Assembly: GCA_003225465.1 (NCBI GenBank)
Contig: QIAH01000353.1
Location: 285-59,221 of the forward strand
Source of the DNA: Acidobacteriota bacterium
Lineage (GTDB): Bacteria; Acidobacteriota; Terriglobia; Terriglobales; Acidobacteriaceae
DNA: 58,937 bases
Direction: 5' to 3'
The position numbers and the translations under genes are program-made. Under the pieces are notes generated by a model. That model saw only the letters and a list, made by a program, of their open reading frames with translations, did no database searches and was not told the DNA's origin. How positions within the stretch are numbered: position 1 is the stretch's first letter; each line of letters starts with the position of its first letter. Of this stretch, positions 3,201 to 51,859 are shown one piece after another.

Positions 3201-4133
3201 ATGCAGCGCTCACTCATCTGTTTCGTTCTCTCATTCCTGGTCGTCTCGCGGACACCTGCATTCGGGCAAGCAGAGTCTTCGCCGCCAACTTCGGGCGCCA
3301 CTCCGTCTATCGCTGCAGATGGCGGGCTGTCCCCCGCTCCCGTAACGCTTTCCCGGGAGCAGATCCAGGACCTGATCCGGCAGGTAGCGGAGAAGGACGA
3401 TGAGAATGACAAGCGGCAACGCGACTACACCTACGTGGAGCGGGTCGAAGAGCACAAGCTGAACGGGAAAGGCGAGGTGGCCTCGACCGAGGTGCGCACC
3501 TACGATGTCATGCAGATTTACCGCGAGCAATGCCGCCGCCTGACGTCGAAGAATGATAAGCCGCTCTCGCCAAAAGATGCCGCAAAAGAAGACGAGAAAA
3601 TCCAGAAAATCATCGACAAGCGAAAAAATGAGAGCGAGGCGCAGCGCGAAAAACGTCTGAAACAGGAAGAGAAAGAGCGCGAAGAGGACCGCCAGTTCGT
3701 GAAGGAAGTCGCCGACGCCTACAATTTCACGCTCGAAGGAGTCGAACAGTTAGACGGCCGGGAAACTTACGTGATCGATGCCGAGCCCCGTCCCGGTTTC
3801 GAGCCGAAGCGCAAAGAAGCGAAAGTTCTGCCCAAGTTTCGTTTTCGAGTCTGGATCGATCGCGCCGAAAATCAGTGGGTGAAACTGGATGCGCAATGCA
3901 TCGACACCGTCTCGTTCGGCTTATTTCTGGCGCGCATCCACAAGGGGTCGAGGATCATCATCGATACCACGCGCGTCAACGATGAAGTCTGGCTGCCGCG
4001 GCACGTTGCGGTACACGTCGACGTACGATTCGCGCTCGTGAAGAACTTCAACGTAGACGAGGACGTCACCTACAAGGATTACAGAAAGTTCCACACAGCC
4101 TCGAAGATTGTGAGCATGGAAGAGGTAAAGTAG
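3201..4133 (+). CDS. Secreted LolA-like protein of unknown function
   Basis: 310 residues starting with a signal peptide (about 1-23, hydrophobic FVLSFLVVS, likely cleavage after AFGQA). Residues 60-150 form a highly charged region rich in Lys and Glu (for example KQEEKEREEDRQFVKE), which may be coiled coil. The C-terminal half has the beta-strand cadence of outer-membrane lipoprotein-sorting-like proteins (RETYVIDAEPRPGFEP, FRFRVWIDRAENQWVKLDAQ, ITTRVNDEVWLPRHVAVHVDVRF-like strands). I infer a periplasmic protein with a LolA/LppX-like beta fold. No Shine-Dalgarno is visible before the ATG. It is monocistronic as far as seen. Confidence 0.65.
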   Translation: MQRSLICFVLSFLVVSRTPAFGQAESSPPTSGATPSIAADGGLSPAPVTLSREQIQDLIRQVAEKDDENDKRQRDYTYVERVEEHKLNGKGEVASTEVRTYDVMQIYREQCRRLTSKNDKPLSPKDAAKEDEKIQKIIDKRKNESEAQREKRLKQEEKEREEDRQFVKEVADAYNFTLEGVEQLDGRETYVIDAEPRPGFEPKRKEAKVLPKFRFRVWIDRAENQWVKLDAQCIDTVSFGLFLARIHKGSRIIIDTTRVNDEVWLPRHVAVHVDVRFALVKNFNVDEDVTYKDYRKFHTASKIVSMEEVK

Positions 4134-4136
4134 CGC

Positions 4137-4206
4137 GCTGATGGCTGCTGGTCGTTGGCTGATGGCTTGTGGCTGATGGCTTGTGGCTGATGGCTGATGG
4201 CTGATG
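4137..4206. repeat. Ten degenerate heptanucleotide repeats (GCTGATG type)
   Basis: Strict 7-base period: GCTGATG alternates with variants GCTGCTG, GTCGTTG and GCTTGTG over exactly ten units. Belongs to the heptad-phased repeat family seen at several other intergenic sites in the window. Confidence 0.85.
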
Positions 4207-4230
4207 GAGCGACGGGCGTGCTCGCCCGTC
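4205..4230. repeat. Dispersed palindrome, GGAGCGACGGGCG family
   Basis: GACGGGCG (4211-4218) pairs with CGCCCGTC (4223-4230) across TGCT, directly abutting the heptad array. Confidence 0.75.
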
Positions 4231-4447: not shown

Positions 4448-4482
4448 GCTAAGAGCTAACGACTAAGAGCTACCAGCTGCTT
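4448..4482. repeat. Five heptad repeats at the uvrB 5' end
   Basis: GCTAAGA, GCTAACG, ACTAAGA, GCTACCA, GCTGCTT run in 7-base phase and occupy the place where a ribosome binding site for uvrB would be expected. Confidence 0.75.
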
Positions 4483-4488
4483 CTCTAT

Positions 4489-6480
<1,992 letters not shown>

Positions 6481-6489
6481 TAGCAAAGA

Positions 6490-6613
6490 CCTTTTCACCA
6501 CAGAAACACAGAGGCACGGAGGAAGGCAAAAAACAACCACGAAGGGCACAAAGGTTGCACGAAGGAATTTGGGGGAAAGAGCCTTCGTGATTCCTTCGTG
6601 TCCTTCGTGGTTG
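6490..6613. repeat. CACAGAG / CACGAAGG repeat block, partly self-complementary
   Basis: Between convergent uvrB and the FMN dehydrogenase. A TTCACCACAGAAACACAGAGG-type segment is followed by a CCACGAAGGGCAC half (from 6537) and its near inverse GTGTCCTTCGTGG (to 6611). The two halves can fold on each other. Similar blocks occur at 33402, 33603, 34208 and 48617. Confidence 0.75.
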
Positions 6614-6628
6614 CTTTTGGTTTTGTTC

Positions 6629-9850: not shown

Positions 9851-9969
9851 GGCAATCAACAGTTGGTAATCAGCAGTTGGTAATCAGCACTCGCCAATCA
9901 GCACTCAGCACTTGGCATTTAGCATTCGGTGCTTAGTACTTGGGACTTGGTACTCGGTACTCAGCAGCC
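9851..9969. repeat. Seventeen degenerate heptad repeats (AGCACTC/GGTACTC type)
   Basis: An uninterrupted 7-base phase over 119 bp: examples are GGTAATC, AGCAGTT, AGCACTC, AGCATTC, GGTGCTT, AGTACTT, GGGACTT and GGTACTC. Most units fit a purine-G-pyrimidine-A-N-T-pyrimidine pattern. It fills the space between the Sel1 gene and the terminator of the receptor gene. Confidence 0.9.
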
Positions 9970-9978
9970 TATTCAAAT

Positions 9979-10004
9979 AAAAAAGGGGAGCCTCGGAGCT
10001 CCCC
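9979..10004 (-). terminator. Rho-independent terminator of the TonB-dependent receptor gene
   Basis: On the minus strand GGGGAGC and GCTCCCC (9985-9991 with 9998-10004) form a 7-bp GC stem with a 6-base loop, followed by six T residues (9979-9984). It sits 20 bases after the receptor stop codon. Confidence 0.85.
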
Positions 10005-10023: not shown

Positions 10024-13000
10024 TTAGAACGAATACTTGGCCCAGAGCGTCACGGTGCGACCGCCCGATGCAGTGAGTGGCTGGTTCAGGAAGTTCGCGC
10101 TGTTGATGTCGCCGTTCAGATTGTTCACGCCCAGATTGGCATGATTGAAGGCATTGAACATGTCCATGCGGAGCTCGATCAGGTGACCTTCCTTGTAGGG
10201 CATCATGAATCGCTTCCCCAGCGAGAGGTTCCAGTCCTGTCGTCCCGGATACGTGAAGTTGTTGCGCGACACGTTGCCATTGACGAACTTGGTGCCCCCG
10301 TAGACTGGATTCAGTGTCACGATATAGCGGAACTGACTCAGGTTTCCGGGAGCCCCGGTATTCCAGTCCACTAACTGCCCGCTGCCATCGTCCTGCCCGA
10401 TTCCCGTAATGCATCCCGATCCCCAGGAGTTGCAGGCGGAACTGTAGTTGAGTGGCGCTTTAGGATTTCCCCAGTTGGGACGATCGTTGTACGCCTCGCC
10501 GTCGCCATTCTGGTCGTAGCCGCCAACATAGATGGTTTCGGGCGTGCCCGATTGGAAGGAGATGACGCCCGAGGTAAACCAGCCGTCGGCAATGTATTTC
10601 AAGAGGCCATTGTTCTTGAAGGGAACCTCGTAGGTATAGCTGATGACCGCCCGGTGCGTGCGATTAAAAGCGGAGGGACCACGATCGCTGCGCGGGTCGA
10701 AGACGTTCTGCCAACGCGACGCGCCGCCTGAGGTGACGAACACGTCGGAGCCATTGTCGATTGCCTTGGAGTAGGTGTAACTACCCCGGATGGCAAAATT
10801 GCCAACCTGACGTGTGACTGAGGTTTGCAGGCCATGATAAATGGAGTCTGCTCGATTACCACGAATCACCAGCGAGCCGCGATTGGTATAAATTCGCGCG
10901 TCGCCCTCGACTCGCGGGTTCAGTTGTTCATTTACCCACAGGCGCTCTCCACGTGTACCGACGTAGGCAACTTCGGCCTTGAGCCGGGCGGGGAGTTCGC
11001 GTTGTACGTTCAGGTTCCACTGGTGGATCAGCGGATTGCGCAGGTTCCTGTCCACGCTCGTGACCGTGGTAAAAGGACTCGGAGTAGCGGTGGCAGTGGC
11101 AATCTCAGTCAGCGGATCGAAGAGGCCACGTCCGGGAGTTGAACCCGCGGTGATGCTTTTCCCGGTCGCATTCGGTGAATTACCCGCCGTGTTGTCGCTG
11201 ATGTTCGTGAAGAACGCGTCATAGAACATGCCCCAACCACCGCGGATGACGGTCTTGTCTTGCCCGAACACGCTGGTCCAGAATTTCGGCGTGTAGGCAA
11301 AGCCCAGACGCGGCCCGAAATTGTTGCGATCCGATTGGACTAGGGTCCGGAGCGGAAATACTGCACTGCCTATATTCTGGCGGCTGAGCGCCGGATAGGC
11401 GAGCACGTTTGAGGCGTCGGGTGGCTGGTACTCGTATCGCACCCCAAAGTCCAGAGTCAGGTTGGAATGGAATTTCCAGCTGTCCTGGAAGTAATACGCT
11501 TGCTGGTTGGTGGGAACCGACTGGCGCGGGTTGCCGAAGGAGCGCGATGCCGTTCCACCGGTGCCGAGATAGTTGTCGAGGTAGTTCTCGAGCGCGCTGC
11601 AAGTATAGGTCGTCTCTGTCCCGCAGGTTCCACCCGCACCGAAGAAAATCAAGCCATCCGAGTTGAAGGGGAATTGATCTTGGACCAGCAGGACCGCAAG
11701 ATCGGCGCCCAGCTTCATAGTATGCGTGCCGCGCGTCCAGGAAACCGCATCCTGGAATTGGAAGTTCTTGTGACCGCGTCCTTGCGGGAAAGATCCCTGC
11801 TCATAGCCGCCCCAATTGAAATCCAGCGTACCGCTATCCAGGTAGAGGGTGGGCAAGTGGGCCATGGGATTGGCTTCGGTGGCGGCAGTAGGCCCGAAGG
11901 TGAAATCAATCTGCTGGGCCGAGAAGCGCAACTCGTTCAACACGGTTGGGCTGAACGTGTGCGCCCACATCAGCCCGAAAATGCGAGAAGGTCCGCTCTG
12001 TTGCGTGTCGGCATAAGGCAACGCGTTGGGATTCGCAAACAGATCCGGACTGCTCGAGTTATAGCTGTCGGTGTAGCGGACGAACACGGAGTCGTTGGTG
12101 AGGTTGTAATCTGCTCGCGCCGTCCATTCGCGGCTCAGATTCTTGCCGATGTCGTTGCGGCGGAAGTACCCCCAGTCGACCTGGCACTGTCCACTCACCG
12201 GGTCAACGGCGGTGGCAGGACAAGCCGTCCGAGCGCCGATCGGGATCGTGCCTTGGGAACTGGGCGCTTGGATGTTGCCCAAAGCCCCCAGCATCAGGTT
12301 GCCGTTTGTGTTGTTCAAAGCCTGCAAGGTCGCAAAGCCGGCGGCCGTAGGAAGGCTCAGTGTGGGTACGGTGGGCACGCCGTGAAAGTGATCCCACTGG
12401 GAAGTCGCAAAGAAGAACAGTTTGTTCTTGATCACCGGTCCGCCGAAACGAAAACCAAAAATGTTTTCCACGAACTGGGCCGGCGTCTTAAGTTCGCCCA
12501 GACGATCCTCAGCAGAAAGCGCGTTGAGGCTCGCGCCTTTGTACTGTTCCCAGGCCGCGCCATGGAACGCATTGCTGCCGCTGCGGAAAGTAAGATTTGA
12601 GACCGAGGCGCCGCCCCGGCCGAACTCCGCTGCGTAGGCGTTCGTGAGGAACGTGACTTCCTGCACGGCCTCGGTGTTCTGCGGCTGATAGGCTTGCCCC
12701 ATAATGCCGTTGTCGTTGTTGTCGAAACCGTCGATCAGGAAGTTGTTGGCACGCGGCCGCAGGCCGTTTACCGTGAACGAGGTACCATTTGTGGAGTCGT
12801 CCCGGGAAGCGACCGTAGACACACCGGGCAGGGTCACCGCCAACTGGTATGGATTCAGAGAGGAATAAGGCAGATCCTTCACATCCACTTGCGGGATGGT
12901 CTTCGACAATTCGCCTGATTCGGTCTGAATCGTCTCGGCTCCCGCCTCGACCGTCACGGTTTCAATGCCGCCCGCGATCTTCAATTCCACATTGGTTGCG

Positions 13001-13314: not shown

Positions 13315-13794
13315 TACGCTTTCCTCCCATCCCCGCGTGGGGAATGATGAAATGTCAACATGAATGTCATCAGCTGAGGGAGCAGTCCAACTCCGGGCGG
13401 TGAACGCCACGGATCTAGCTCGAGCAGCTGTCACCGGGTGGGGCGGTCAGCAGAATCGCGTGGCGCGCCAGCGCAGACCGAGTCGCGGTGAGTGCTTAGC
13501 GCTAACAGCATGGACGGTGCGCACGCTGCCAAACTGTGACGGTACGCACAAATGGGACAAAATTTCAGGGTGCTTCCTGATATAGGAATGAAGGAACGGC
13601 GGCACGCTACGCCACATCAGCTTGCTCTATCGTTCGGCGGCGGCAAGCAGGCTCTCCAGCGAGTGCTCTCGAACCTGAAGGAATACGAACAAGGGAAGGG
13701 TGCGTCGAAGGTTGAAGCTAGCAGCTAGAAGCCAAGAGCCAGGAGCCAAAAGCTGGAGCCTGGCCAACCAACGACCAAGTACCAACGACCGCTC
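13315..13794. other. 480-bp region upstream of the receptor gene
   Basis: Should contain the receptor promoter, but no strong -35/-10 pair stands out on the minus strand. The left end holds a heptad repeat array (13714-13797) and a possible 46-codon ORF (13588-13728). Confidence 0.5.
13588..13728 (+). CDS. Possible small protein (46 aa)
   Basis: ATG at 13588, 46 codons, stop TAG inside the heptad repeat. The peptide has a central basic-amphipathic stretch (LALSFGGGKQALQRVLSNLK) that looks more protein-like than random translation. The ribosome binding site is poor and the end runs into repeat DNA, so it may be spurious or a remnant of a longer gene. Confidence 0.25.
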   Translation: MKERRHATPHQLALSFGGGKQALQRVLSNLKEYEQGKGASKVEASS

Positions 13795-13797
13795 TTA
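13714..13797. repeat. Twelve degenerate heptad repeats (GAAGCCA/AACGACC type)
   Basis: Units such as GAAGCTA, GCAGCTA, GAAGCCA, AGAGCCA, GGAGCCA, GCCAACC, AACGACC and AAGTACC keep a 7-base phase up to the stop codon of the cheR-like gene on the other strand. Confidence 0.85.
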
Positions 13798-14688
13798 GAA
13801 TTTTGCGGCCCGCGCGGCGGCTGCGAAGGGCTTGCGGTACAAGGTGAAACTCTGGTGGGATTCGGATTGGAAGGTCACATCCGCGGCCGGCAGTTTCTCG
13901 CCGTCGCCCAGCAGCAGATAGCCGCCGGGTTCCAGATAAAGATGCAAACGTTGAGCCAGAGCCACTCGCTGAGCGCTGGAGAAATGGGGGAGGACGTCCA
14001 TGCAGAAGATGCAATCGAAACGCCCCAGATAGGCGGGACGCACCAGGTTCATCTGCGTGAAGGTGATGAGATTGCGCAGGCGCGGCTTGGCGAGAAAGTG
14101 CTGATCGAGCTTGGCAAAATAGTTTTGCACCAAGGGGCGCGGGAGGGCTGCCAAAGCCGCGTGCGGATAAAGGCCGCGCTCGGCGAATGTGAGAGCATCC
14201 TGGCGAACATCACTCGCCAGAATATGGATAGTCCAACTGCCCGCGGCCTCTTTCATCGCCTCACACACCGCGAGCCCGATAGAATAAGCTTCTTCGCCCG
14301 TGGAGCAGCCCGCGCTCAGGATGCGCAGACTCTGCGTTCCTTCGCCGGCCTTGCGCACGCGCAGTTCGGGCAGTATTTCTTTCTCGAATACTTCGAAGGC
14401 CACAGGATGACGGAAGAAACCCGTTTCTCCGTCCAGAATCTGTTCGAGCAGCCGTTCGCACTCCGCATCCGATGTCTGCAGGCGGCCAATGAGGTCCGCA
14501 ACCGAGCTCAGGCGGCGGGATTGAAGATATGCGCTGACTTTAGCCCCAAACACCTCCTGCGGGCAGTTCAGCAGGACTCCAGCTTGACGCTCCATGAGCA
14601 AGCGCAACTCGGACAGCTCATGTTCAAGCACCAGGTGGAGGGTCTTCTGCCCCTTGCCCGTCCGGCCGAGATTGAATCCTGCATTCAT
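13795..14688 (-). CDS. CheR-type SAM-dependent methyltransferase, divergent
   Basis: 297 residues with the CheR layout: N-terminal helical domain (about 20-105) containing ILDGETGFFRHPVAFEVF, then the Rossmann domain with SAM site RILSAGCSTGEEAYSIG (about 120-140) and the acidic LASDVRQDALTFAERGLY loop. The usual CRNVLIYF motif reads CMDVLPHF here, so Arg and Asn are lost. That sets it apart from the standard CheR at 25952. It is last in a leftward set with 14798 and 15507. CheR enzymes methylate receptor glutamates; this one may act on another protein or be impaired. Confidence 0.85.
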   Translation of the reverse strand: MNAGFNLGRTGKGQKTLHLVLEHELSELRLLMERQAGVLLNCPQEVFGAKVSAYLQSRRLSSVADLIGRLQTSDAECERLLEQILDGETGFFRHPVAFEVFEKEILPELRVRKAGEGTQSLRILSAGCSTGEEAYSIGLAVCEAMKEAAGSWTIHILASDVRQDALTFAERGLYPHAALAALPRPLVQNYFAKLDQHFLAKPRLRNLITFTQMNLVRPAYLGRFDCIFCMDVLPHFSSAQRVALAQRLHLYLEPGGYLLLGDGEKLPAADVTFQSESHQSFTLYRKPFAAAARAAKF

Positions 14689-23394: not shown

Positions 23395-25386
23395 ATGACG
23401 CTGCGCAACAGGCTTTACATGAACTTCGGAGCCGTCCTTGTGATGGTCCTGGTCATGTTCTTAGTCAATTGGAGAGCCGTGAATCGCGAGCATGAGGCGA
23501 AGAAGGCGGCGGACTCATCGCAGGAACTGTCGGACGCGACCGATAAGGTCAAGTTCCAGATGATGCAGAACCGGCTCTATCTGAGCAACTACCTGCTCAG
23601 CGGCGATACCCGCGAAGTGGACCGCATGAATGAGGGCGTGCGCTCGCTGAACGACAAGCTGGAAAAGACCAAGGAGTTGGCTGCCTCAGAGCAGGAGAAA
23701 ACCGCTCTCGAAAAGGTGCAGCAACTGGAACAGAACTGGGCTAAGGAATTTGCGCAACCGCTGGTCGAGAAGCGTAAGGACGTGGACAGCGGCAATGCCA
23801 CGGTCGCGGAACTGCAGATTTTCTATCTCCAGAAAGACGCCTCGTCCTGGGTAAAGAACACAACCGAGTATCTGGACGCGGCCGACAAGGAAAACAAGAA
23901 AATCGTCGATGAGCGGCACAAATCAGATGACACGGCCGCCAACTGGACGATCCTGGTTTCGTTCGTGAGCATGCTGCTGGCGCTGGGCGTCGGCATCGGG
24001 ATCGCGTATCGCACCGCAGCCTCCATTACCGAACCACTTGCAAAACTGATGACGGTGGCGCACAAGATCGGCAACACCGGCGATCTGGACCACAATGTCG
24101 AAGTAGATCTCACGCGGCAGGATGAGATCGGGGAGTTGGCGCGCACTTTTGCCAACATGGTCACCTACCTGAAGGAGATGGCGGCAGTCTCGGAAGCCAT
24201 CGCGAACGGCAACTTGATGGTCCAGGTCGAGCCGCGCTCAAAGCAGGACACCTTGGGCCATGCCTTCCAGCAGATGGTGGAGAGCTTGCGCGCGCTGGTG
24301 CGCAGCGTTCGGGACCTGGCCTCGCAGGTGGCGAGCGCATCCAGCCAGGTGGCGGGCGCCTCCGACGAATCGGCCAAGATCAGCCTGCAGGGTTCTTCCG
24401 CGATTGACGAAGTCACCAGCACGATGCACGAGATGAGCGTGAACGTGCAGAACATGGTGAAGAGCACGCAGACCCAGGCCTCCAGCGTGAGCGAGACCTC
24501 CGCCTCGATTGACCAGATGGTGGCTTCGATCCAGCGCGTGGCCGATACCGCCAAGGTGCTGCTCGATATTTCCAACCGCTCGCGCGAAGAAGTCCATAGC
24601 GGCATCACCACCATGGACAAGGCGACCGAGGGCTTAACGAAGATCAACAACACCATTCGTTCGTCGGGGGCCATCATCGACGCGCTTGGGCAACGAGCGG
24701 ACGATATCGGCAAGATCATCGAAGTGATCGACGACCTGGCCGAACAGACCAACCTGCTCGCGCTCAACGCCGCGATTGAAGCGGCGCGCGCCGGGGAACA
24801 TGGCCTCGGCTTCGCGGTGGTGGCAGACGAAGTTCGGAAGCTGGCGGAGAAGTCGGCGCAATCCACGAAGGAAATTTCCGAACTTATCCAGAGTATTCAG
24901 AAGGAAGCCCGCAAGGCCGTCGAGAACATGGACGAGAGCACGACCATCGTCAACGAAGGCCTGGAACTGGGTGGCGAGTTGAACGGGGCGCTGCGCAAGA
25001 TCTCGAACGTGGTCACCGAGGTCTACAAGTTCGCCCAGGAGATCGGCGCGGCCACCAACGAGCAATCGCATGGATCTTCGCAGATTGCGCGGGCCACCAC
25101 GCGGCTGAACGAAATCACGCACGAAATCAATTCGGCGGTGGAGGAGCAGGCATCGGGCGCGCAAGCCGTCGTGAAAGCCATGGAACGCATGCGCGAACTG
25201 ATCCAGCAGAGCACCTCGGGGTCAACCGAACTGGCCGCTTCCGCCGAGCAAATGTCGAAGATGTCGCGCGAACTGCTGGATGCGCTGGAGCGCGTAGCCG
25301 GGCGGACGGGCGAAGTCGACGAGCATACGCGCAGAGCCGACCGGGTTCCGGCGAAGGGTGCGCGTCACGCCAGCGCAGGGGCATAG
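23395..25386 (+). CDS. Methyl-accepting chemotaxis protein
   Basis: 663 residues from the ATG at 23395 behind GGAGGAACAGCG. One transmembrane helix at about 10-26 and one at about 184-205 bracket an all-helical periplasmic domain resembling CHASE3 or four-helix-bundle sensors. A HAMP domain (about 206-260: [20 protein letters not shown]) and the long cytoplasmic coiled-coil signalling domain follow. The hairpin tip is conserved ([40 protein letters not shown], from about residue 445). No CheR-tethering pentapeptide is visible at the C-terminus (ARHASAGA). It should control the CheA encoded downstream through the CheW in between. Confidence 0.96.
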
Positions 25387-25389
25387 AGG

Positions 25390-25929
25390 ATGAGCATGGA
25401 GCGGCACACGAGTCCTGCGCAAAACCGCGAACTGCAGATCGTCGGCTTCCGGGTGGGCAACGAAACCTATGGAGTGCCCATCACGGCGCTGCACGAGATC
25501 GTGCGCGTGCCCGATATCACGGCGGTGCCCGACGCGCCCGAGTACATGGAAGGCGTGATCAATCTTCGCGGCAAGATCGTGTCGGTAATCGACCTGCGGA
25601 AACGCTTTGGGATCAAAGAGGCCGCCGCCAGCCGCCGCAACCGCATTCTGGTGGTGGAGCACAACGGGCGGCTTAACGGTCTGATTGTGGACTCCGCCTC
25701 CGAAGTGCTCAAGATTGCCGCCGCGGACATCGAACCGCCACCCGCCGTGCTGCAGGAAGGCGGTCTCAATTGCGTGACGGGACTGGGCAAGTACCGGGGG
25801 CGGCTCATCATGTTGCTGGACACAAGCAAGCTCCTGGAGTTTGGCAGTCTGCGCACTCCAAAAGCTGCGGGAGAAACCAAGCCGGCAGCCAGCTCGAAGA
25901 CGGAGGTTCGCGGCGCGGCTGCACGTTGA
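25390..25929 (+). CDS. cheW: CheW coupling protein
   Basis: 179 residues with the CheW SH3-like fold: LQIVGFRVGNETYGVPITALHEIVRVPDITAVPDAPEYMEGVINLRGKIVSVIDLRKRFG. The final 30 residues are a polar Ala/Lys tail beyond the domain. It links the chemoreceptor to CheA in the signalling array. It starts four bases after the MCP stop, with GAGG just upstream, so the two are certainly cotranscribed. Confidence 0.95.
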   Translation: MSMERHTSPAQNRELQIVGFRVGNETYGVPITALHEIVRVPDITAVPDAPEYMEGVINLRGKIVSVIDLRKRFGIKEAAASRRNRILVVEHNGRLNGLIVDSASEVLKIAAADIEPPPAVLQEGGLNCVTGLGKYRGRLIMLLDTSKLLEFGSLRTPKAAGETKPAASSKTEVRGAAAR

Positions 25930-25951
25930 GCAGAACTGCACCGGATCAACC

Positions 25952-26863
25952 ATGGCCACACCAGGAGCAGCACCAGCGCCGGCGCTCACGGAAGCGGAAC
26001 TGAAACTGTTGCAGGCTCTCGTTTACCAGGAATGCGGCATGCATTTCGACGAGCGGCGCACGCATTTTCTGCAGGACCGTCTGCAGCGCCGGCTGCGCGA
26101 GTGCCAGCTCGACTCCTTTTATAGCTACTATCGGCTTCTGATCAGCGATGCCGGCAAAGCGGAACTGGCTCAGCTGCTGGAGAATCTCACCGTCAACGAA
26201 ACCAGCTTCTTCCGCAACCGCGCACAGCTAGAGCTCTTTCACAAATACGTTCTGGAAGACCTGCTGCGCCGCAAGCAGGAGCGGCGCGATTTCTCACTGC
26301 GCTTCTGGAGCGCGGGCTGCTCGACCGGGCAAGAGGCCTACACCATGGCCATGCAGGTGGCCGATGCGCTTGCCTATTACTACATGCGCAATCCGCTGCC
26401 GGTGGAGGCGCCGACGCCCAAGCCGCTGATTCCCGCGCCCTGGAAGGTGGAGATTCTCGCCAGCGACATCAGCTACTCGGTTTTGCGCGCGGGGCAGGAC
26501 GGCATGTACAGCGAGAATCAAATGTCGGCCGTCGACTACAGCTACCGGCTGCGCTATTTCGACAAAATCGGCGAACGGTATGCGGTCAAGAAGGCTCTGA
26601 AGGAAGTCGTCCACTTCGACTTTCATAACCTGAAGACGGAGTACTTGCCGCAGCGCAACGATGTGATCTTCTGCCGCAACGTCATGATGTATTTCGACGA
26701 GGCCGAGCAGAAGCGGCTGATCAACAAATTCTATCGGTGTTTGAATCCGGACGGCTATCTGTTCGTCGGACACGCCGAAAGCCTGCTGGGCCTGACGGAA
26801 AAATTTCAGATGGTGCACCGCAACAATGGGACCGCCTATCAACGCGTCGAGGTGAAGCTGTGA
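25952..26863 (+). CDS. cheR: Chemotaxis protein methyltransferase CheR
   Basis: 303 residues from the ATG at 25952. CheR N-terminal domain (LTEAELKLLQALVYQECGMHFDERR, ENLTVNETSFFRNRAQLELF) and SAM-binding domain (SLRFWSAGCSTGQEAYTMAMQVADAL, about 110-135), and the intact IFCRNVMMYFDEAEQKRL motif near the end. It methylates glutamates of the adjacent chemoreceptor, opposed by CheB. Its stop overlaps the cheA GTG start. Confidence 0.95.
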   Translation: MATPGAAPAPALTEAELKLLQALVYQECGMHFDERRTHFLQDRLQRRLRECQLDSFYSYYRLLISDAGKAELAQLLENLTVNETSFFRNRAQLELFHKYVLEDLLRRKQERRDFSLRFWSAGCSTGQEAYTMAMQVADALAYYYMRNPLPVEAPTPKPLIPAPWKVEILASDISYSVLRAGQDGMYSENQMSAVDYSYRLRYFDKIGERYAVKKALKEVVHFDFHNLKTEYLPQRNDVIFCRNVMMYFDEAEQKRLINKFYRCLNPDGYLFVGHAESLLGLTEKFQMVHRNNGTAYQRVEVKL

Positions 26864-29037
26864 GCCAGTCGGACGATCGCATGGCGGAACTGCGCGAGCT
26901 CTTTTTTGAGAGCGCGCAGGAACTTCTCCAGGCGCTGAACGACGAAGCGCTCAAGCTGGAGAAGCATCCCGGCGATTCCGAGATTGTGCGGACGCTGCGC
27001 CGGATCGTGCACACCCTGAAAGGCGATGCCGCCGCCTGCGGCTACCGCGAACTCAGCGAAGTGGCGCACGAACTGGAAGACGCGCTGGCGCTCGAGTCGG
27101 CGGCTGCGCACGCGAGCCTTGCTGAAGTTGCCTTCACCGCCGCAGATCTGTTTTCCGCGATGCTGGCGGCCTACCGCAAACGCGCCAAGCTGCCTTCCCG
27201 CGATCCACTCCGCAAGATGGTGAAGAAGCTCGCCCAGGAACCGGGCGCGAAGCAATCGGGACGCAGGAAAGCCGCGGTCACGGCCAAGACGCTGGGCTGG
27301 ACAGAATACGAAAAACTGGCGGTCCAGAAAGCGCAGGAGGGCGGCAATTTCGTCTACCATGTGCAGGCGCAGATTGATCCGCATTGCGCCATGCCCATCG
27401 CCGCGCGGCAACTGGTGCAGAACGCGCTGGCCGGAATGGGAGAAGTGCTGGCGGCACGTCCGGAAGCAGGCTCTTCCGCGCCGACGAAATCGGCGGAGTT
27501 CCTGCTGGCGACCGATAAGAGTTGCGAGGAAGTTTCCGGCAAGTGCCAGATTCCCACCATCGTTGCCAGCGTGAAGGCGGAGTTGCTGCCCGGCGGAGTT
27601 GCGACGGCCCCGAAGCGTGCCGCCAGGAAAACTGTGAAAGCTGCCGAAGCAGAAATCGCTTCTCCGGCGCCCGAAATTCCGGCAGTTGAGGAACCGGCCC
27701 CAGCGCCGGTTGCGGAAGAAACCGTCAGTGAGAACACCGCCCAACCGCACACGACGCTGGCGGAAAACATTTTGCGCGTGGATGCGGAACGAATCGATTC
27801 CGTGCTCAACCTCGTCGGCGAACTCATCATCGGCAAATCGATGCTGCAGCAGGCGCTCAATGAATTCTCGAAGGTCTATCCCAAAGAAGCTCTGCGGGGG
27901 AAATTCGCCGATGCCATGGCCTTCCAGGCGCGCGTACTGAATGATTTGCAGCGCTCGGTGATGAAGATTCGCATGGTGCCAGTCGAGCAACTGTTCCGGC
28001 GCTTCCCGCGCATGGTGCGGGATGTCGCGCGGCAGTGCGGCAAAGATGTCGAACTGGTGCTGACCGGCCAGGACACCGACCTCGATAAGAGCATTCTCGA
28101 CGCCATTGCCGAGCCGCTCACCCACCTGGTCCGCAATGCCATCGGCCACGGCCTGGAGTCAGCGGGAGAACGCCAAAAGGCGGGCAAGTCAACCCGAGGC
28201 ACGCTGCGGTTGGGCGCGTATCACCAGGGGAATCAAGTCATCGTGGAAGTCAGCGACGATGGGCGCGGCATGGACGTCAACCGGATCAAGGCAAAGGCGA
28301 TCCAGCTAGGGATGGTCACCGCCGAGGATGTAGCGCGGCTTAGCGAGGCGGAAATTCTGGATTTTGTGTTCCGGCCGGGCTTCAGCACGGCGGAGGAAGT
28401 CACCGAGGTCTCCGGGCGCGGCGTAGGCATGGATGTGGTGCAGAGCGTGATGCATCGCCTCAAGGGTACGGTGCATATCGACATGCATGCCGGGCAAGGC
28501 ACGACCTTCCGGCTGAAGCTGCCGCTCACGCTCGCCATCATCAAGGCGCTCCTGTTCCAGGTGCAGCAGCGGCTGTATGCGATCCCGCTGAACGCGGTGG
28601 TGGAGATTGCGCGCACGCATGAGTCGGAAGTCCACCAGGTCGATCACTATGAAGTTCTGCAGCTTCGCAACCAGGTGCTGCCCCTGGTGCGGCTGGGACG
28701 TCCGCGCAGTAACGACCCCGAGCGCGGAGCGAACAAGCTTTTTGTGCTGGTAACCAGCGTGGGGGAGAGGAAGTTCGGGCTCATTGTGGATGGGCTGGAA
28801 GGTGAGGAAGAGTTGGTCATCAAGGCGTTGGACGACCATGCAGTCTCGACTGACCTGGTCAGCGGAGCGTCCATTCTGGGAGATGGGCGCGTTGTTCTCA
28901 TACTGAATTTATCTACGGTGGTGGAGCATTTTGCCCGCTCGCGTCCTGAGGAAGCGGGAGCGGTGAATTTTGGCATGTTGCTTTCGCAGGCCGATCGCGC
29001 GCAGTTGAGCCGGAATGCGGCGGGAGGTGTGTCGTGA
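26860..29037 (+). CDS. cheA: Chemotaxis histidine kinase CheA
   Basis: 725 residues from GTG at 26860, overlapping the cheR stop as GTGA and preceded by GAGGTGA. P1 Hpt domain with phospho-acceptor His51 (IVHTLKGDAAACGY). A roughly 200-residue middle region contains a partly basic, Ala/Pro/Glu-rich linker rather than a standard P2. P3 dimerisation (ILRVDAERIDSVLNLVGELIIGKSM), P4 ATPase with N box HLVRNAIGHGLE near 422 (the usual Asp is Gly) and G box DDGRGMD near 466, then P5 CheW-like regulatory domain from about 562. It phosphorylates CheY and CheB encoded downstream. Confidence 0.96.
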   Translation: MSQSDDRMAELRELFFESAQELLQALNDEALKLEKHPGDSEIVRTLRRIVHTLKGDAAACGYRELSEVAHELEDALALESAAAHASLAEVAFTAADLFSAMLAAYRKRAKLPSRDPLRKMVKKLAQEPGAKQSGRRKAAVTAKTLGWTEYEKLAVQKAQEGGNFVYHVQAQIDPHCAMPIAARQLVQNALAGMGEVLAARPEAGSSAPTKSAEFLLATDKSCEEVSGKCQIPTIVASVKAELLPGGVATAPKRAARKTVKAAEAEIASPAPEIPAVEEPAPAPVAEETVSENTAQPHTTLAENILRVDAERIDSVLNLVGELIIGKSMLQQALNEFSKVYPKEALRGKFADAMAFQARVLNDLQRSVMKIRMVPVEQLFRRFPRMVRDVARQCGKDVELVLTGQDTDLDKSILDAIAEPLTHLVRNAIGHGLESAGERQKAGKSTRGTLRLGAYHQGNQVIVEVSDDGRGMDVNRIKAKAIQLGMVTAEDVARLSEAEILDFVFRPGFSTAEEVTEVSGRGVGMDVVQSVMHRLKGTVHIDMHAGQGTTFRLKLPLTLAIIKALLFQVQQRLYAIPLNAVVEIARTHESEVHQVDHYEVLQLRNQVLPLVRLGRPRSNDPERGANKLFVLVTSVGERKFGLIVDGLEGEEELVIKALDDHAVSTDLVSGASILGDGRVVLILNLSTVVEHFARSRPEEAGAVNFGMLLSQADRAQLSRNAAGGVS

Positions 29038-30149
29038 AGCCTTCCCGGGTGCGAGTTCTGGTGGTCGACGATTCGGCGCTCATGCGCAAGCTGATTCCGC
29101 AAATCCTGGAAGCGGACGATTCCATTGAGGTCGTCGGCACGGCGATGGACGGCAATTTTGGGCTGAAGAAGATCGAGGAACTGAAGCCGCAGGTGGTGAC
29201 GCTCGATCTCGAAATGCCGGGCATGAACGGCATCGACATGCTGCGCCAGGTGATGCGGAAGCTATATCCGGTGCCGGTGATTGTGGTCAGCTCGCACAGC
29301 ACCGAGGGAGCTTCGATCACCCTCAAGGCGCTGGGCTTCGGCGCGTTCGACTTTGTGGCGAAACCACGCGACGTTTCGACCCGCATGCCGGAAATAGCCG
29401 CCGAGCTGATCACGAAGATTAAAGCAGCCGCCAACAGCAAGAGCATCGCGGTCAAGCCGCTGGCCAGCACGATGCAGTATGGCAAGGCGCCCGTTGCTTC
29501 CACCCAGGCGCCGACAAGAATCGTGACCATCGGCGTTTCGACCGGCGGCCCGCACGCGCTGCAATACGTGTTTTCGCAACTGCCGGCGGATTTTCCGGGC
29601 AGCATCCTGGTGGTGCAGCACATGCCGGAAAACTTTACCGAGATGTTTGCGCGGCGTCTGGATGAGACCAGCGCGTTGCGCGTGAAGGAAGCGCAGTCCG
29701 GCGATCTGCTGATGCCGGGACGGGCGCTGATCTGCCCGGGCAGCCGTCATTTGAAAGTCAAGAAATTGCCTCTGGGCAATGTGGCGCTGCTGAGCGATGA
29801 ACCGCGCATTCGCGGCCATCGTCCCTCGGCGGACATACTTTTCCGCAGTGCCGCGGAAGAATTCGGCCCGCAGACGGTCGCTGTGATCATGACCGGCATG
29901 GGAGACGACGGAGCTGAAGGCCTAGGTACGGTCAAGGCGGCTGGAGGCATGACGATCGCGCAGAGCGAAGAGTCGTGCGTGGTCTACGGCATGCCGAAAG
30001 CGGCGGTGGACCGCGGGTACGCGATCCGGGTCGTGAGTCTGGAAGCCATGGCGAGCACGTTGATGGCACAGTGCGCGCCCGAAAGCGGGCGTGGCGAGAA
30101 GTCTGGGCACGGTGGGAGCGGCAAGGGCGCGAGCGCCGGGCAAAACTAG
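29034..30149 (+). CDS. cheB: Chemotaxis protein-glutamate methylesterase CheB
   Basis: 371 residues; GTG start overlapping the cheA stop (GTGA) with GGGAGG upstream. Receiver with Asp58 (VTLDLEMPGMNG), interdomain linker about 125-160, and esterase domain with the catalytic triad Ser169 (GVSTGGPHA), His196 (VVQHMPENF) and Asp292 (MTGMGDDGAEG). It removes methyl groups, and may deamidate glutamine, on the chemoreceptor when phosphorylated by CheA. The C-terminus has a Gly/Ser/Lys tail beyond the domain. Confidence 0.96.
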   Translation: MKPSRVRVLVVDDSALMRKLIPQILEADDSIEVVGTAMDGNFGLKKIEELKPQVVTLDLEMPGMNGIDMLRQVMRKLYPVPVIVVSSHSTEGASITLKALGFGAFDFVAKPRDVSTRMPEIAAELITKIKAAANSKSIAVKPLASTMQYGKAPVASTQAPTRIVTIGVSTGGPHALQYVFSQLPADFPGSILVVQHMPENFTEMFARRLDETSALRVKEAQSGDLLMPGRALICPGSRHLKVKKLPLGNVALLSDEPRIRGHRPSADILFRSAAEEFGPQTVAVIMTGMGDDGAEGLGTVKAAGGMTIAQSEESCVVYGMPKAAVDRGYAIRVVSLEAMASTLMAQCAPESGRGEKSGHGGSGKGASAGQN

Positions 30150-31150: not shown

Positions 31151-31319
31151 AAGCTAGTCGCATGCGTGCCCATTCGCACGCGGGCGCCGTACCTGCATCC
31201 CCCAAGCGTGGCTTCCCTTCTCCGATCGTGCACCTGCTGATGCTTGCCATGATTTAGATGTGAAGGCGCTTCTCGCGCGCCGTGGTGTCGCAGATTCCTC
31301 CGCCGTTCGGCGTCGGAAT

Positions 31320-31511
31320 GACAAGAACGATAGAGCAGAGACGAGGTGACGTTCCGTTCGGCTTCGGAATGACAAGAACGATAGAGCAGAGACGAGATGG
31401 CGTTCCGTTCGGCTTCGGAATGACAAGAACGATAGAGCAGAGACGAGGCGGCGTTCCGTTCGGCTTCGGAATGACAAGAACGATAGAGCAGAGACAAGAT
31501 GGCGTTCCGTG
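31320..31511. repeat. Four tandem 51-bp repeats
   Basis: Units start at 31320, 31371, 31422 and 31473. Each begins GACAAGAACGATAGAGCAGA and ends in a half ATTCCGACGCCG-type element (GTTCGGCTTCGGAAT). The last unit decays after about 39 bases. The unit therefore consists of a half element plus a 30-bp spacer. Confidence 0.9.
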
Positions 31512-31574: not shown

Positions 31575-31706
31575 TCCTCAAGTCTTGTCATTCCGACGTC
31601 GAGCGCGGCGGAGGAATCTCCTCAAGTCTTGTCATTCCGACGCCGAACGCGGCGGAGGAATCTCCTCAAGTCTTGTCATTCCGACGCCGAACGCGGCGGA
31701 GGAATC
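31575..31706. repeat. Three tandem 44-bp repeats
   Basis: Units start at 31575, 31619 and 31663; each is TCCTCAAGTCTTG followed by a full ATTCCGACGCCG-type element in the opposite orientation to the copy at 31289. Units two and three are identical; unit one differs at two sites. Confidence 0.9.
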
Positions 31707-31770
31707 TCGTTCGGATCGCAGCTCAGGCGCGTTCTGTGATCGAAACGTGCCGGTGCGCTTGATGTTCTTT

Positions 31771-33079: not shown

Positions 33080-33358
33080 ATGGACGCGTGGAAAAAAGCA
33101 GTGGTGGCGGGAGCGGCTGGGGGCGCGGCCGTTCTCTTGGCGAAGAAGAGATGGCCTGCGGGCGTGCTTACGGCTGGGGTGGCGCTCGCAGTCCTGGCTT
33201 CCGAGTATCCGGAGAAGTTTGAAGACCTACAGGATAGTTTGCCGCAGTATTTCGATCGCGGAATGCGGGTGATGGAGATGATTTCCCGCGCGGGGCAGAA
33301 GATTGCAAAACTCGCGGAGCAAAGCGGGTACGAAGTTTGGGACGAGATCAGGTCCTAG
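33080..33358 (+). CDS. Small protein with Gly/Ala-rich hydrophobic segment
   Basis: 92 residues from the ATG at 33080, preceded by GGGGG; the frame opens five codons earlier. Residues 8-24 (AVVAGAAGGAAVLLAKK) and 28-42 (AGVLTAGVALAVLASEY) are two short hydrophobic stretches, followed by an amphipathic acidic helix. Possibly a membrane hairpin protein. Unrecognised, and no partner is suggested by position. Confidence 0.6.
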   Translation: MDAWKKAVVAGAAGGAAVLLAKKRWPAGVLTAGVALAVLASEYPEKFEDLQDSLPQYFDRGMRVMEMISRAGQKIAKLAEQSGYEVWDEIRS

Positions 33359-33760
33359 AGGGCACTCCCTAAACTTGACCTCGCTTTATCTGTGGATATT
33401 TTCACCACAGAGGCACCGAGAAAATCAAAAAGCTTGAACCACGAAGGACACAAAGGCTGCACGAAGGCTCTTGGAGAAGCTTTGTGAATCCTTCGTGGCC
33501 TTAGTGGTTGCTTTTGATTTACTCGATGGCGAGTTGCTTGCGGCGTCGGCGCTGAGTAGTGGGCACTCTCTAAACTTGACCTCGCTTTATCTGTCGATAT
33601 TTTCACCACAGAGGCACCGAGAAAATCAAAAAGCCTGGACCACGAAGGGCGCAAAGGCTGCACGAAGGCTCTCGGGGAAACTTTGTGAATCCTTCGTGGC
33701 CTTAGTGGTTGCTTTTGATTTACTCGATACCGAGTTGCTTGCGGGCGTCGGCGCTCAGGC
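33359..33760. repeat. 201-bp tandem duplication covering the 3' end of the MIP18-type gene
   Basis: The block starting GGGCACTC at 33360 is repeated at 33561 with about 90 percent identity by eye. Each copy holds a CACAGAGG segment, a CACGAAGG fold-back and the last dozen codons of the gene on the minus strand. The outer copy has lost one base in that coding part, so only the inner copy serves as the gene end. Confidence 0.85.
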
Positions 33761-34381: not shown

Positions 34382-35116
34382 ATGGAATTCAATCCGGAAG
34401 TGAAGCAGAAGATCCAGCTTGCGCTGGCACTGGCGATTGCGGTTGCTGCGATCCGCACGGGTTATGTCCTCTACGAGCGGCATGCCTCGAACAGGAAGGA
34501 GACGCAGACGCAGGCGCAGGCCGCTCCGCCGCTGAATCCGGATTACTACGTCACCCCGAAGAAGCTGCATCCCTACGATTTGAAATCGGCGCGCGAACTC
34601 ACCGAGCAGCCCGTCTGGGTGAAGGAGGGCTATCGTTATCTGTACTATCCTTACAGTCGGGCAACGAAGCGCACGGACTTCGAACACGACGCCGGCATGC
34701 TGTTGCCCATTCAGCGGCTCCAGATCAAGGACGTGGTCACCGACACCGCACCCAACTCAGACGGCCAAAAGCAAGTGATGGCGCTGTTCGAGCAGGACGG
34801 CAAAACCTACGCGTTCCAGATTGGCCTGATCAAAGACGGCGATTCCAAGATCTACTCGGACGAGATGCTTTTCGTCGAGGACCCGCACGAGTTGTACAAG
34901 CACTGGCCGCAGGACGTCTGGTCTTCCGTGGAGAAACACGAAGTGAAGCCTGGGATGAATGAGCTGCAAGCCGACTTTGCAATCGGCGTGGGGCGGCCGG
35001 AGAGGCAGGACGATCCAGCATGGAAGACAGTGCACTATCCGAATGGCGGGAAGCCCGTCACGATCACATATCACGAAGGCAAGGCCACGGAGATTAAGGC
35101 GGACAATGCGTCGTAA
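34382..35116 (+). CDS. Membrane-anchored protein of unknown function
   Basis: 244 residues. One membrane-anchor helix at about 12-30 (LALALAIAVAAIRTGYVLY), then a Gln/Ala/Pro-rich stalk and a soluble domain rich in Tyr and charged residues (YYVTPKKLHPYDLKSAREL, DGKTYAFQIGLIKDGDSKIYSDEMLFVEDPHELYKHW). The cytoplasmic tail is short, so the domain should face the periplasm. No known motif; not recognised. The convergent downstream region carries a heptad repeat and a 27-bp inverted repeat. Confidence 0.65.
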   Translation: MEFNPEVKQKIQLALALAIAVAAIRTGYVLYERHASNRKETQTQAQAAPPLNPDYYVTPKKLHPYDLKSARELTEQPVWVKEGYRYLYYPYSRATKRTDFEHDAGMLLPIQRLQIKDVVTDTAPNSDGQKQVMALFEQDGKTYAFQIGLIKDGDSKIYSDEMLFVEDPHELYKHWPQDVWSSVEKHEVKPGMNELQADFAIGVGRPERQDDPAWKTVHYPNGGKPVTITYHEGKATEIKADNAS

Positions 35117-35120
35117 GGCA

Positions 35121-35217
35121 GGGTTTAGGGTTTAGGCTCTAGGCTCTAGCGATCAGGCTCTAGCCCTAGCTTTCAGGCTTTGTTTTTCAGGCTCTAGTCT
35201 TCAGGCTCAAGTCGTCC
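35121..35217. repeat. Heptad repeat array (GGCTCTA type)
   Basis: GGGTTTA, GGCTCTA, GCGATCA, GGCTTTG, GTCTTCA and GGCTCAA units follow in 7-base phase, with one 6-base slip at about 35163-35168. A mirror array occupies 35290-35324. Confidence 0.85.
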
Positions 35218-35322
35218 GATTTTAAGCTCGCCTTCGAAGTCCGGATTGCCGCTTCTTTAGCGGCTCGGAAAATTTGCAATTGGGCTTGCTAGAGCCTAGA
35301 GCCTGATCGCTAGAGCCTAGAG
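35137..35322. repeat. 27-bp perfect inverted repeat between convergent genes
   Basis: The arm at 35137-35163 (centre GCTCTAGCGATCAGG) is the exact reverse complement of 35296-35322, with 132 bases between. Both arms are built of heptads, and the right arm ends two bases before the stop codon of the leftward gene. Confidence 0.9.
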
Positions 35323-35324
35323 TC

Positions 35325-35801
35325 TTACTTCACCTTGGGTGAGCTCGCGTCCGCGGCCTTCGTTTCATCGGCGTGAATTACGCCATCCTCGTCCGCGTAG
35401 AACGAACGGTGTTCGGCGTCCACGTTCTTCGGGGTCATGGTTAAAACATAGTTGTCCTTCTTGCCTTTAAACCCCACCGTATAGTCGCCGCGCTCGGTGG
35501 TCTTGGCCATGCGGCGCGTGAAGGAGCCGGTGTTCACAAGATCCATGAGCGAAGTCGCGTACTGGTCGTGCTTCTTCTGGTAGAGCTTTTGCGCCCGGAT
35601 CACCACGCGCATGTAGCCGAGGGCGCCGGCTTCCGCATCGGAGCGAGCCGGATCTCCGGGAAACTTAGGCTGATACGAGCCTTGGGCTGCGGCGGGCGCC
35701 TGAGCAGCGGGTTCTGTCTGTAGGCTAGGCTGGGCGATGACCGGAGCGGCTCCCGCAACCGGAAGTGTCGACAAAAGTAGGGCCAAATTCCGAATTTTCA
35801 T
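35325..35801 (-). CDS. Secreted pseudopilin-like small protein
   Basis: 158 residues with signal peptide (about 1-23: LALLLSTLPVAGAAPVIAQ). After an Ala/Gln/Pro stretch, residues 55-145 read like the globular part of a type II secretion pseudopilin or pilin-like protein (GALGYMRVVIRAQKLYQKKHDQYATSLMDL, GDYTVGFKGKKDNYVLTMTPKN, RSFYADEDGVIHAD), without the N-terminal prepilin cleavage motif. Likely periplasmic. Function unknown. Confidence 0.65.
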   Translation of the reverse strand: MKIRNLALLLSTLPVAGAAPVIAQPSLQTEPAAQAPAAAQGSYQPKFPGDPARSDAEAGALGYMRVVIRAQKLYQKKHDQYATSLMDLVNTGSFTRRMAKTTERGDYTVGFKGKKDNYVLTMTPKNVDAEHRSFYADEDGVIHADETKAADASSPKVK

Positions 35802-39962: not shown

Positions 39963-39997
39963 CCAACGACCATCAGCTAATAGCTACCAGCCAACCA
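39963..39997. repeat. Heptad repeats ending at a start codon
   Basis: CCAACGA, CCATCAG, CTAATAG, CTACCAG, CCAACCA are in 7-base phase and run into the ATG at 39997. Confidence 0.7.
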
Positions 39998-40623: not shown

Positions 40624-40670
40624 CCGCAAAGTTCGCAAAGGAATCGCAAAGCACGCGAAGAGGGCTTCTG

Positions 40671-40747
40671 GCAACTCGCAACTAGGTACTCGGTACTAGA
40701 TACTCGCGACTGCCCACCAGCAATCGGCCATCAGCCACCAGCCATTT
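40671..40747. repeat. Eleven heptad repeats (GGTACTC/GCCACCA type)
   Basis: GCAACTC, GCAACTA, GGTACTC, GGTACTA, GATACTC, GCGACTG, CCCACCA, GCAATCG, GCCATCA, GCCACCA, GCCATTT: 7-base phase throughout, ending 14 bases before the lnt GTG. Confidence 0.85.
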
Positions 40748-40761
40748 GCTATCCTTCCAGC

Positions 40762-48615: not shown

Positions 48616-48711
48616 ATTTTCACCACAGAGTCACAGAGACACAGAGGGAACTTTAAATACCTATTCTGGACTTGCCTCTTCTTTCTCTGTGCCTCTGTGT
48701 CTCTGTGGTGA
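48616..48711. repeat. CACAGAG fold-back repeat between two leftward genes
   Basis: Left arm 48620-48646 (TCACCACAGAGTCACAGAGA...) is nearly the reverse complement of 48684-48711 (...TGTGTCTCTGTGGTGA), with a 37-base AT-richer loop. It ends at the stop codon of the methyltransferase gene and could stall or end its transcript before rarA. Confidence 0.85.
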
Positions 48712-50923: not shown

Positions 50924-50927
50924 GAAA

Positions 50928-51021
50928 GTTTCAGGTTTCAAGTTTCGAGTTCCAAGTGGGGTTCCGCGCAAATCCTTCTCATTTCAGACTGACTCGAAAC
51001 TTGAAGCCCGAATCTCGAAAC
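50928..51021. repeat. Heptad repeats in inverted halves
   Basis: GTTTCAG, GTTTCAA, GTTTCGA, GTTCCAA (50928-50955) and, on the other strand, TCGAAAC, TTGAAGC, CCGAATC, TCGAAAC (50994-51021) are in 7-base phase. A 14-base TTCAAGTTTCGAGT core is shared as an inverted repeat between convergent genes. Confidence 0.8.
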
Positions 51022-51627: not shown

Positions 51628-51664
51628 CGGCAGATTCCTCCGCCGTTCGGCGTCGGAATGACAA
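51628..51664 (-). repeat. ATTCCGACGCCG-type dispersed element
   Basis: Minus-oriented copy followed by ACTTGAGGATTACG, much like the tail after the copy at 47222. A plus-oriented copy lies 100 bases to the right, forming an inverted pair. Confidence 0.8.
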
Positions 51665-51764
51665 GACTTGAGGATTACGTTACGAGATTCGACGTTCGAC
51701 CGAGCTAGCAGGTGAATCCCGGCCATGGCCCGCCATCGTCCGCCCTATCCTATGGTTCTTGTGG

Positions 51765-51800
51765 TTCTTGTCATTCCGACGCCGCACGCGGCGGAGGAAT
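51765..51800 (+). repeat. ATTCCGACGCCG-type dispersed element
   Basis: Plus-oriented copy that pairs as an inverted repeat with 51628-51664. One internal change: CGCACGCGG for CGAACGCGG. Confidence 0.8.
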
Positions 51801-51859
51801 CTGCGACAGCAAGGCGCGCGGGAAGCGGTTGCGCGTCTACACTAGCGGATGCTCTTCGA

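Follow-up and report, generated by a model that had tools for sequence, protein, structure and literature searches.

Degenerate heptanucleotide arrays, often in inverted pairs, at gene ends of Acidobacteriota genomes

The window, the whole 58,937-nt stretch of DNA analysed here (G000:C256:285-59221), belongs to the 6.15 Mb, 590-contig draft genome of an Acidobacteriota bacterium, hereafter G000. Its rarA protein is nearest to those of Terriglobia MAGs (gp1 Acidobacteria), within a wider group that includes Ca. Sulfotelmatobacter. A chemotaxis cluster is located at 23395-30149 (MCP, CheA-type kinase and CheB by Pfam), and cheR at 13795-14688. The gaps between genes contain arrays of 7-base units, nine ranges of which were listed in the first-pass annotation as keeping a constant period while their words vary. 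The arrays and their inverted arms are given below, each with the listed range, the fraction of matches at lag 7 and a per-site p value (a single-place binomial on that fraction) in brackets.

4137..4207, plus strand: GCTGATG array of 10 units, a 5' arm, 3 nt past the stop of the ORF at 3201-4133 (4137-4206: 0.76, p = 5e-17)
4448..4488, plus strand: inverted partner (GCTAAGAGCTAACG...) of the 4137 array, with which it pairs in the predicted fold; it extends to the uvrB start at 4489 (4448-4482: 0.61, p = 9e-5)
9851..9969, plus strand: single array of 17 units with RGYAYTY words, 6 nt past the stop of a Sel1-repeat ORF (9851-9969: 0.59, p = 8e-14)
13704..13794, minus strand: array past the cheR stop, with TTGGTCG units, TTGGCTN and TAGCTNC in turn on the gene strand (13714-13797: 0.57, p = 4e-9)
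35120..35217, plus strand: TAGGCTC/AGGGTTT array with slips, a 5' arm, 3 nt past the stop of the ORF at 34382-35116 (35121-35217: 0.48, p = 4e-6)
35289..35324, minus strand: inverted arm CTAGAGC, abutting the stop of the convergent ORF at 35325-35801 and pairing with the array at 35137-35170 (35290-35324: 0.61, p = 9e-5)
39963..39997, plus strand: weak, marginal array (CCAACGA...) directly 5' of a start codon (39963-39997: 0.57, p = 4e-4)
40663..40752, plus strand: array of GGTACTN, then GCCAYCA, 39 nt past a stop and directly before the next start (40671-40747: 0.66, p = 2e-12)
48620..48711, minus strand: period-8 hairpin with CACAGAGN arms and a 38-nt loop in the gap before rarA, with the architecture of the period-7 hairpins
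50926..50957, plus strand: CAAGTTT array, a 5' arm, 2 nt past the stop of a DUF218 gene
50991..51021, minus strand: inverted arm (CTCGAAACTTGAAG...), adjoining the stop of a convergent DinB gene and pairing with 50927-50950 (50928-51021, two arms and spacer: 0.49, p = 1e-6)

By the lag scan and the binomial p values, eight of the nine ranges are either clear themselves or pair with a clear one, whereas 39963-39997 is marginal and, for a scan of 59 kb, weak alone. An unsupervised scan at its threshold missed the three weaker short sites (4448-4482, 35290-35324 and 39963-39997); in the predicted fold, the former two pair as inverted arms with the strong arrays at 4137 and 35121. The 9851-9969 array has no separate inverted arm, and units such as AGTACT are palindromic themselves. 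Beside it lies a conventional stem with an A/T tract (about 9984-10004), which reads as the intrinsic terminator of the convergent, minus-strand TonB-type receptor gene. Further gap hairpins of period 8-10, of the CACAGAGN or CCTTCGTG type, were observed at 48620-48711, 57465-57487, 33356-33755 and 6529-6618, with partly the same architecture. No Rfam match above the gathering score was found at the arrays within the window, and membership of a known RNA family was rejected on this ground. The sole Rfam match in the window, an Acido-Lenti-1 RNA (RF01687; 57317-57362, minus strand, 60.5 bits), lies off the arrays.

Scanning lags 4-21 in the window for segments with at least 25 matches per 35 gave hits at lags 7, 14 and 21 only. 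The first-pass annotation had named the absence of a genome-wide period-7 excess, or identical patterns in shuffled intergenic sequence, as outcomes that would speak against its observation. In 245 kb of G000, consisting of the window and 20 contigs picked by number without regard to arrays, 28 lag-7 segments were found, compared to 3-9 at lags 5, 8, 10, 11, 13, 17, 19 and 20. Three of the 28 are runs of N, which score at all lags, leaving about 25 segments at lag 7 against about 0-6 at other lags once multiples of 3 and 7 are set aside. First-order Markov resampling (order-1 sampling, which differs from an exact dinucleotide shuffle) produced 3 lag-7 segments. The test therefore fails to refute the observation: the period is real, and its constant phase with changing words in intergenic DNA extends genome-wide. 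A lag-7 peak is present across all sampled gaps, those without strong arms having a match rate of 0.279 at lag 7, compared to about 0.255 at neighbouring lags. All G000 statistics refer to stretches of the genome rather than to the complete sequence, and part of the G000 sample was picked for holding arrays, its array-blind part giving the same trends with smaller numbers.

Three properties were missed in the first-pass annotation, namely adjacency to stop codons, frequent inverted pairing and a word skeleton shared genome-wide. The arrays typically begin 0-7 nt past stop codons. Within 7 nt of a gene edge lie 62% of the gap arrays, compared to a mean of 18% and a maximum of 29% under uniform placement, and the edges used are 50 stops and 13 starts, with similar numbers of each available. 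Across 87 stop-adjacent arrays, the lag-7 signal stays close to background over the last codons and has risen to about 0.8 by +4, the fifth base past the stop; these arrays were selected for a start within 6 nt, only their non-extension into the gene being informative. TGA stops are under-used beside arrays (21 of 87, compared to 405 of 990; Fisher p = 0.0009), and divergent gaps carry fewer arrays (11 of 93, compared to 103 of 505; p = 0.06). The purine fraction is 0.44 in stop-side arms, which are thus pyrimidine-rich, and 0.56 in the purine-rich start-side arms, although the arms of one hairpin complement each other and hence are not independent in this bias. Genes were called with a simple home-made codon-usage caller, and individual gene ends may therefore be off.

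The 78 arrays examined in G000 reduce to 38 consensus words when rotation and strand are disregarded, of which AACTGAG (11 arrays), ACGAGCT (6), AAGCTCG (6), AGAGCCT (5) and AAACTCG (5) are the commonest, and 76 of the arrays fall into one single-linkage network of one-letter steps. Mean word distance is 1.50 within a gap and 2.70 between sites, compared to 3.07 for letter-shuffled words. The proposal that period is selected and not sequence is too strong within G000, where the 78 arrays share a skeleton worth 3.65 bits in an alignment-free model, compared to a null maximum of 2.33, which in practice is YNRGYNY on one strand. Nor is period 7 alone involved: among 134 strong hairpins, 66 have tandem arms, 47 of them with period 7, 15 with period 8 and four with other periods. 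The shared skeleton and the strand bias suggest some constraint beyond mutation, though the arms are not independent.

Arrays that share a gap match as inverted arms in 40 of 57 pairs in eight genomes, compared to 149 of 654 pairs between gaps, and strong self-complementarity occurs in 11.5% of gaps, compared to 0.2% for mixed arms. Strong arm pairing was found in 12 of the 46 array gaps of G000, about a quarter, single arrays being common. Reverse-complementary array pairs are located at 35120-35324 and 50926-51021 in the window, and at 10899-10978, 11411-11561, 12192-12383 and 13419-13588 in locus L063 of the same genome. As RNA or single-stranded DNA, a gap with paired arrays would be able to form a long, imperfect hairpin whose loop is unique. 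Among 57 strong hairpins the loops show no relationship to one another (1 of 1596 pairs, 15 bp), and the arms recur by word. The order of units is not mirrored between arms (shift ratio 0.84 for own and 0.83 for cross arms, p = 0.53), and whole-arm inverted duplication, which predicts mirrored order, was rejected in this comparison. Base-by-base compensatory evolution was likewise rejected, being weak in the single alignable group, the AATTTGY hairpin, where compensatory change was seen in 3 of 40 pairs and many pairs are broken in some species. Since covariation is weak in this one word family, tight selection on each base pair is unsupported.

Comparison of orthologous gaps revealed that the words are replaced in place. 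The infA-rplQ region, whose gene names were read from small proteins and gene order, is syntenic in G000 (L063), G007 (L092) and G011 (reverse of L093) at 73-80% DNA identity. The rpsM-rpsK gap has TCAGTTC arms in G000 and TTAGCYN in G007, and in G011 is 39 bp long without a hairpin. The rpsD-rpoA gap contains CRAGTTT in G000 and GGTCGTT in G007, and the rpoA-rplQ gap CRRGTTT and GGTCAGT, respectively, with none in G011 in either case. The gap before rarA was compared in 80 genomes (80 loci from a rarA query); the DUF218 protein as query found no loci of relatives. Eight word families occur in this gap across the 80 genomes, the period-7 words including TTGATTG, TTAGCTY, AATTTGY, AAGTCAG and TCAGTTC; period 8 is represented by CACGGAGG and GATCACCC, and a period of about 9 by AACACGGAT. 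Mapped on a maximum-likelihood rarA tree, the word labels require at least 19 changes, compared to a minimum of 9 and a shuffled mean of 22.1, and close relatives differ in word family (L144 and L149; L139 and L151). In L166, CTCTGTGGTGAAA is kept beside an AATTTG hairpin and looks like the remnant of a period-8 arm. The earlier claim that the period stays while words change is thus borne out at orthologous gaps, which swap the word and retain arrays of period 7, sometimes 8 or 9.

Matches to the pattern (YNRGYNY)x5 were found in 20 of 41 close genomes and, across the phylum, in 141 of 396 sampled genomes, with patchy counts. The forward pattern far exceeds its backward control in some genomes (G156, 867 and 81; G336, 330 and 4; G314, 214 and 1), whereas others have mainly or only the backward one (G162, 0 and 247; G290, 7 and 319; G087, 559 and 1549), the arrays there following other skeletons. 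An array-blind sample of 520 kb from 38 genomes gave 16 segments at lag 7 and 13 at lag 8, compared to 0-5 at lags 4, 5, 10, 11, 13, 17, 19, 20, 22 and 23; counts are also raised at coding multiples of 3 and at lags 14 and 16. From these lag counts and the patchy pattern counts, the feature is therefore real phylum-wide, uneven, and inclusive of period 8. Most relatives are draft genomes from metagenomes; an artefact of fragmented assembly was rejected, as arrays also occur in the single-contig 7.48 Mb G156 and in many independent genomes. A plasmid search with a TCAGTTC array gave no match. It is possible, though we rather doubt it, that the architecture itself (a stop-anchored inverted pair of period-7, sometimes period-8, arrays) is conserved phylum-wide while words are replaced wholesale, both arms alike, on the time scale of genus divergence. 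If true, this would call for a mechanism that writes one word into both arms, or for strong selection on the hairpin alone.

Taken together, the best reading is 7-nt slippage within inverted repeats at gene ends, which as transcribed hairpins would be tolerated or useful; we give it just short of an even chance. What the sequences show directly is the period, the placement, more inverted pairing than between sites, words that turn over at orthologous gaps, and loops that are unique; slippage, folding in vivo and any benefit are what we infer. Short inverted repeats at gene ends would be lengthened by replication slippage, mostly in 7-nt steps, and because both arms share the period, a one-unit slip would leave them pairable. 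Further slippage would spread point changes along an arm, such that each site drifts to its own word, and a site may occasionally be overwritten by another word family. The border of the arrays at the stop codon would be set by purifying selection, as expansion into coding sequence is proposed to be selected against. The resulting 3'-end hairpin may be tolerated, or may help mildly as an mRNA spacer or 3'-end shield. A word shared by two arms whose units are not mirrored fits slippage acting separately in the two arms, as opposed to the copying of an entire arm in inverted orientation. Slippage is therefore favoured by the lack of whole-element copying, the unmirrored units, the weak covariation and the few U tracts. 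Its weak point is that word families recur at one gap in separate lineages; such recurrence is expected from copying or spreading but not from slippage that is purely local, and allows for some copying from site to site.

A rival explanation is that the hairpins are selected in transcripts for 3'-end protection, processing or cistron separation, with words drifting while the arms pair. The same gaps bear hairpins with different words, the hairpins lie past stops and within the infA-rplQ operon, expected to be co-transcribed, divergent gaps are poorer in arrays, and there is strand asymmetry relative to the genes. However, the few compensatory pairs in the AATTTGY hairpin and the patchy presence, with G011 operon gaps devoid of hairpins, make this explanation rather unlikely. 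The recurrence that is awkward for slippage speaks for a dispersed or mobile family, REP/BIME- or MITE-like, in which a transposase or ectopic conversion copies arms from site to site: a given word family turns up at many sites, and separate lineages repeatedly carry it at one orthologous gap, and the apparent period-8 remnant CTCTGTGGTGAAA persists beside the AATTTG hairpin of L166. Yet copies share no loops, there is no fixed consensus, and the copy number of Y1_Tnp (RAYT-type) is unrelated to that of arrays, as G001 (69% complete) has 164 pattern matches and no Y1_Tnp while G008 has 2 matches and 16 Y1_Tnp. A RAYT/REP origin and MITE-like copying of whole hairpins were rejected on the transposase counts and the unrelated loops, respectively; therefore whole elements are not copied, and a mobile family as such appears unlikely.

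Neutral period-7 slippage as in plain STRR-like SSRs, with inverted pairing as a by-product of quasi-palindromic words, would account for the single array in many gaps and for nearly palindromic words such as AGTACTN, and heptanucleotides form the commonest class of long SSRs in many genomes (Mrazek 2007, as cited in PMC4679880). Arms within a gap, however, match far better than arms across gaps of the same genome, so self-complementarity of the skeleton is insufficient, and adjacency to stop codons is unexpected for neutral arrays placed randomly in gaps; we consider this explanation improbable. Intrinsic, possibly bidirectional, terminators with unusual stems are hardly credible. They would suit a location past stops and in convergent gaps, and a T4 tract lies within 12 nt past the stem in 15% of period-7 hairpins, compared to about 2% expected from composition. 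But 85% have no such tract, where an intrinsic terminator combines a GC-rich stem with a U tract, several hairpins stand between ribosomal protein genes of one operon, and the 9851-9969 array is already adjoined by a conventional stem-plus-T terminator. With U tracts too few, canonical terminators were rejected; given also the hairpins inside the ribosomal protein operon, termination is therefore not a general role.

Intergenic heptamer repeats and degenerate heptamer hairpins are already known. Heptanucleotides were reported as the most abundant long repeat class, with a 7-nt polymerase contact suggested (Mrazek 2007, in the account of PMC4679880); a preference for this period had thus been proposed before. 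The head-to-tail 7-nt units described here, above chance and mostly non-coding, resemble cyanobacterial STRRs and the intergenic TAACTGA repeats of Beggiatoaceae; the latter lie just 5' of starts, where start-side arms here include GAACTGA, one letter off (PMC4679880). Those repeats, however, use one or a few fixed near-perfect words per genome, mostly as direct repeats, in contrast to the 38 words in 78 arrays and the inverted pairs observed here. In the P6b element of the Nostoc tRNA-Leu (trnL) intron, degenerate heptanucleotides pair into a hairpin (PMC3488679), and the first-pass remark that a drifting form is undescribed accordingly does not stand. As in P6b, degenerate 7-nt units are present on both strands of the stem and base-paired (here in predicted folds), words fall into classes and length varies by unit number. 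P6b is a single locus in a cyanobacterial self-splicing tRNA-Leu group I intron, unlike the hundreds of intergenic sites in one genome (extrapolated) with site-specific words, replaced at orthologous sites, described here.

GGGNATC heptamers of Xanthomonas and Nostoc are also intergenic and close to ORFs, lying up to 50 bp past the stop, or overlapping it, when on the coding strand and shortly 5' of the start when on the non-coding strand (PMC4692102), which in tandem genes amounts to inverted arms and is the placement of the arrays here. They are G-rich with one consensus and form G-quadruplexes, whereas the present arms pair as hairpins and most common words lack four-fold runs of G tracts. 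No GGG is found in AACTGAG, ACGAGCT, AAGCTCG or AAACTCG; the minority class TGGGCTC (reverse complement AGAGCCC) carries it in some units only, and no G-quadruplex signature was seen. REP/BIME elements (GTAG/CGTC-tagged, PMC3733652) and MITEs are likewise multi-copy intergenic inverted repeats, but the arms here are tandem heptamers with unique loops. They have neither a fixed consensus or tag nor a correlation with Y1 transposases, unlike REP/BIME, and their interiors are unrelated, unlike MITEs with shared terminal repeats and interior.

No acidobacterial heptamer repeats were found in open-licence papers, and that literature appears to contain no description of the form seen here, with many words and paired arms across a genome and words replaced in place. 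Earlier heptamer reports were piecemeal (cyanobacteria, Beggiatoaceae and Xanthomonas), each with a fixed word, whereas many words here share one architecture; stop-anchored, often paired arrays with words swapped between genera connect those reports with P6b of Nostoc. Two questions can now be tested: what makes 7 nt the slippage step that bacteria prefer, and whether inverted arms locked to one period drive slippage or survive it. Some seemingly unique intergenic DNA of Acidobacteriota would be fast-evolving repeat hairpins, with consequences for annotation, promoter and sRNA searches, and assembly.

Other repeats were observed in the window and elsewhere in G000. They include tandem repeats of 51 bp (four copies) and 44 bp (three copies) in which GTCATTCCGA/CGGAATGAC occurs, and also a dispersed inverted repeat. 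The 29-35 nt arms of the latter (TTGTCATTCCGACGCCGAACGCGGCGGAGGAATCT) show 91-100% identity from site to site, while its loops are unrelated. Small, near-identical or similar hairpins with arms such as CCCCACCCTCACCTCGC and a 7-nt loop are present at several gene ends of G000 and may represent a short dispersed palindrome family.

31303-31510, 31575-31708 and 51630-51804 in the window; L054:18728-18982, L062:852-1023 and L066:12096-12286: tandem 51-bp/44-bp and dispersed inverted repeats
L034:7602-7640, L046:3320-3360, L046:6675-6715, L055:5514-5554 and L066:10196-10236: small hairpins of the CCCCACCCTCACCTCGC type
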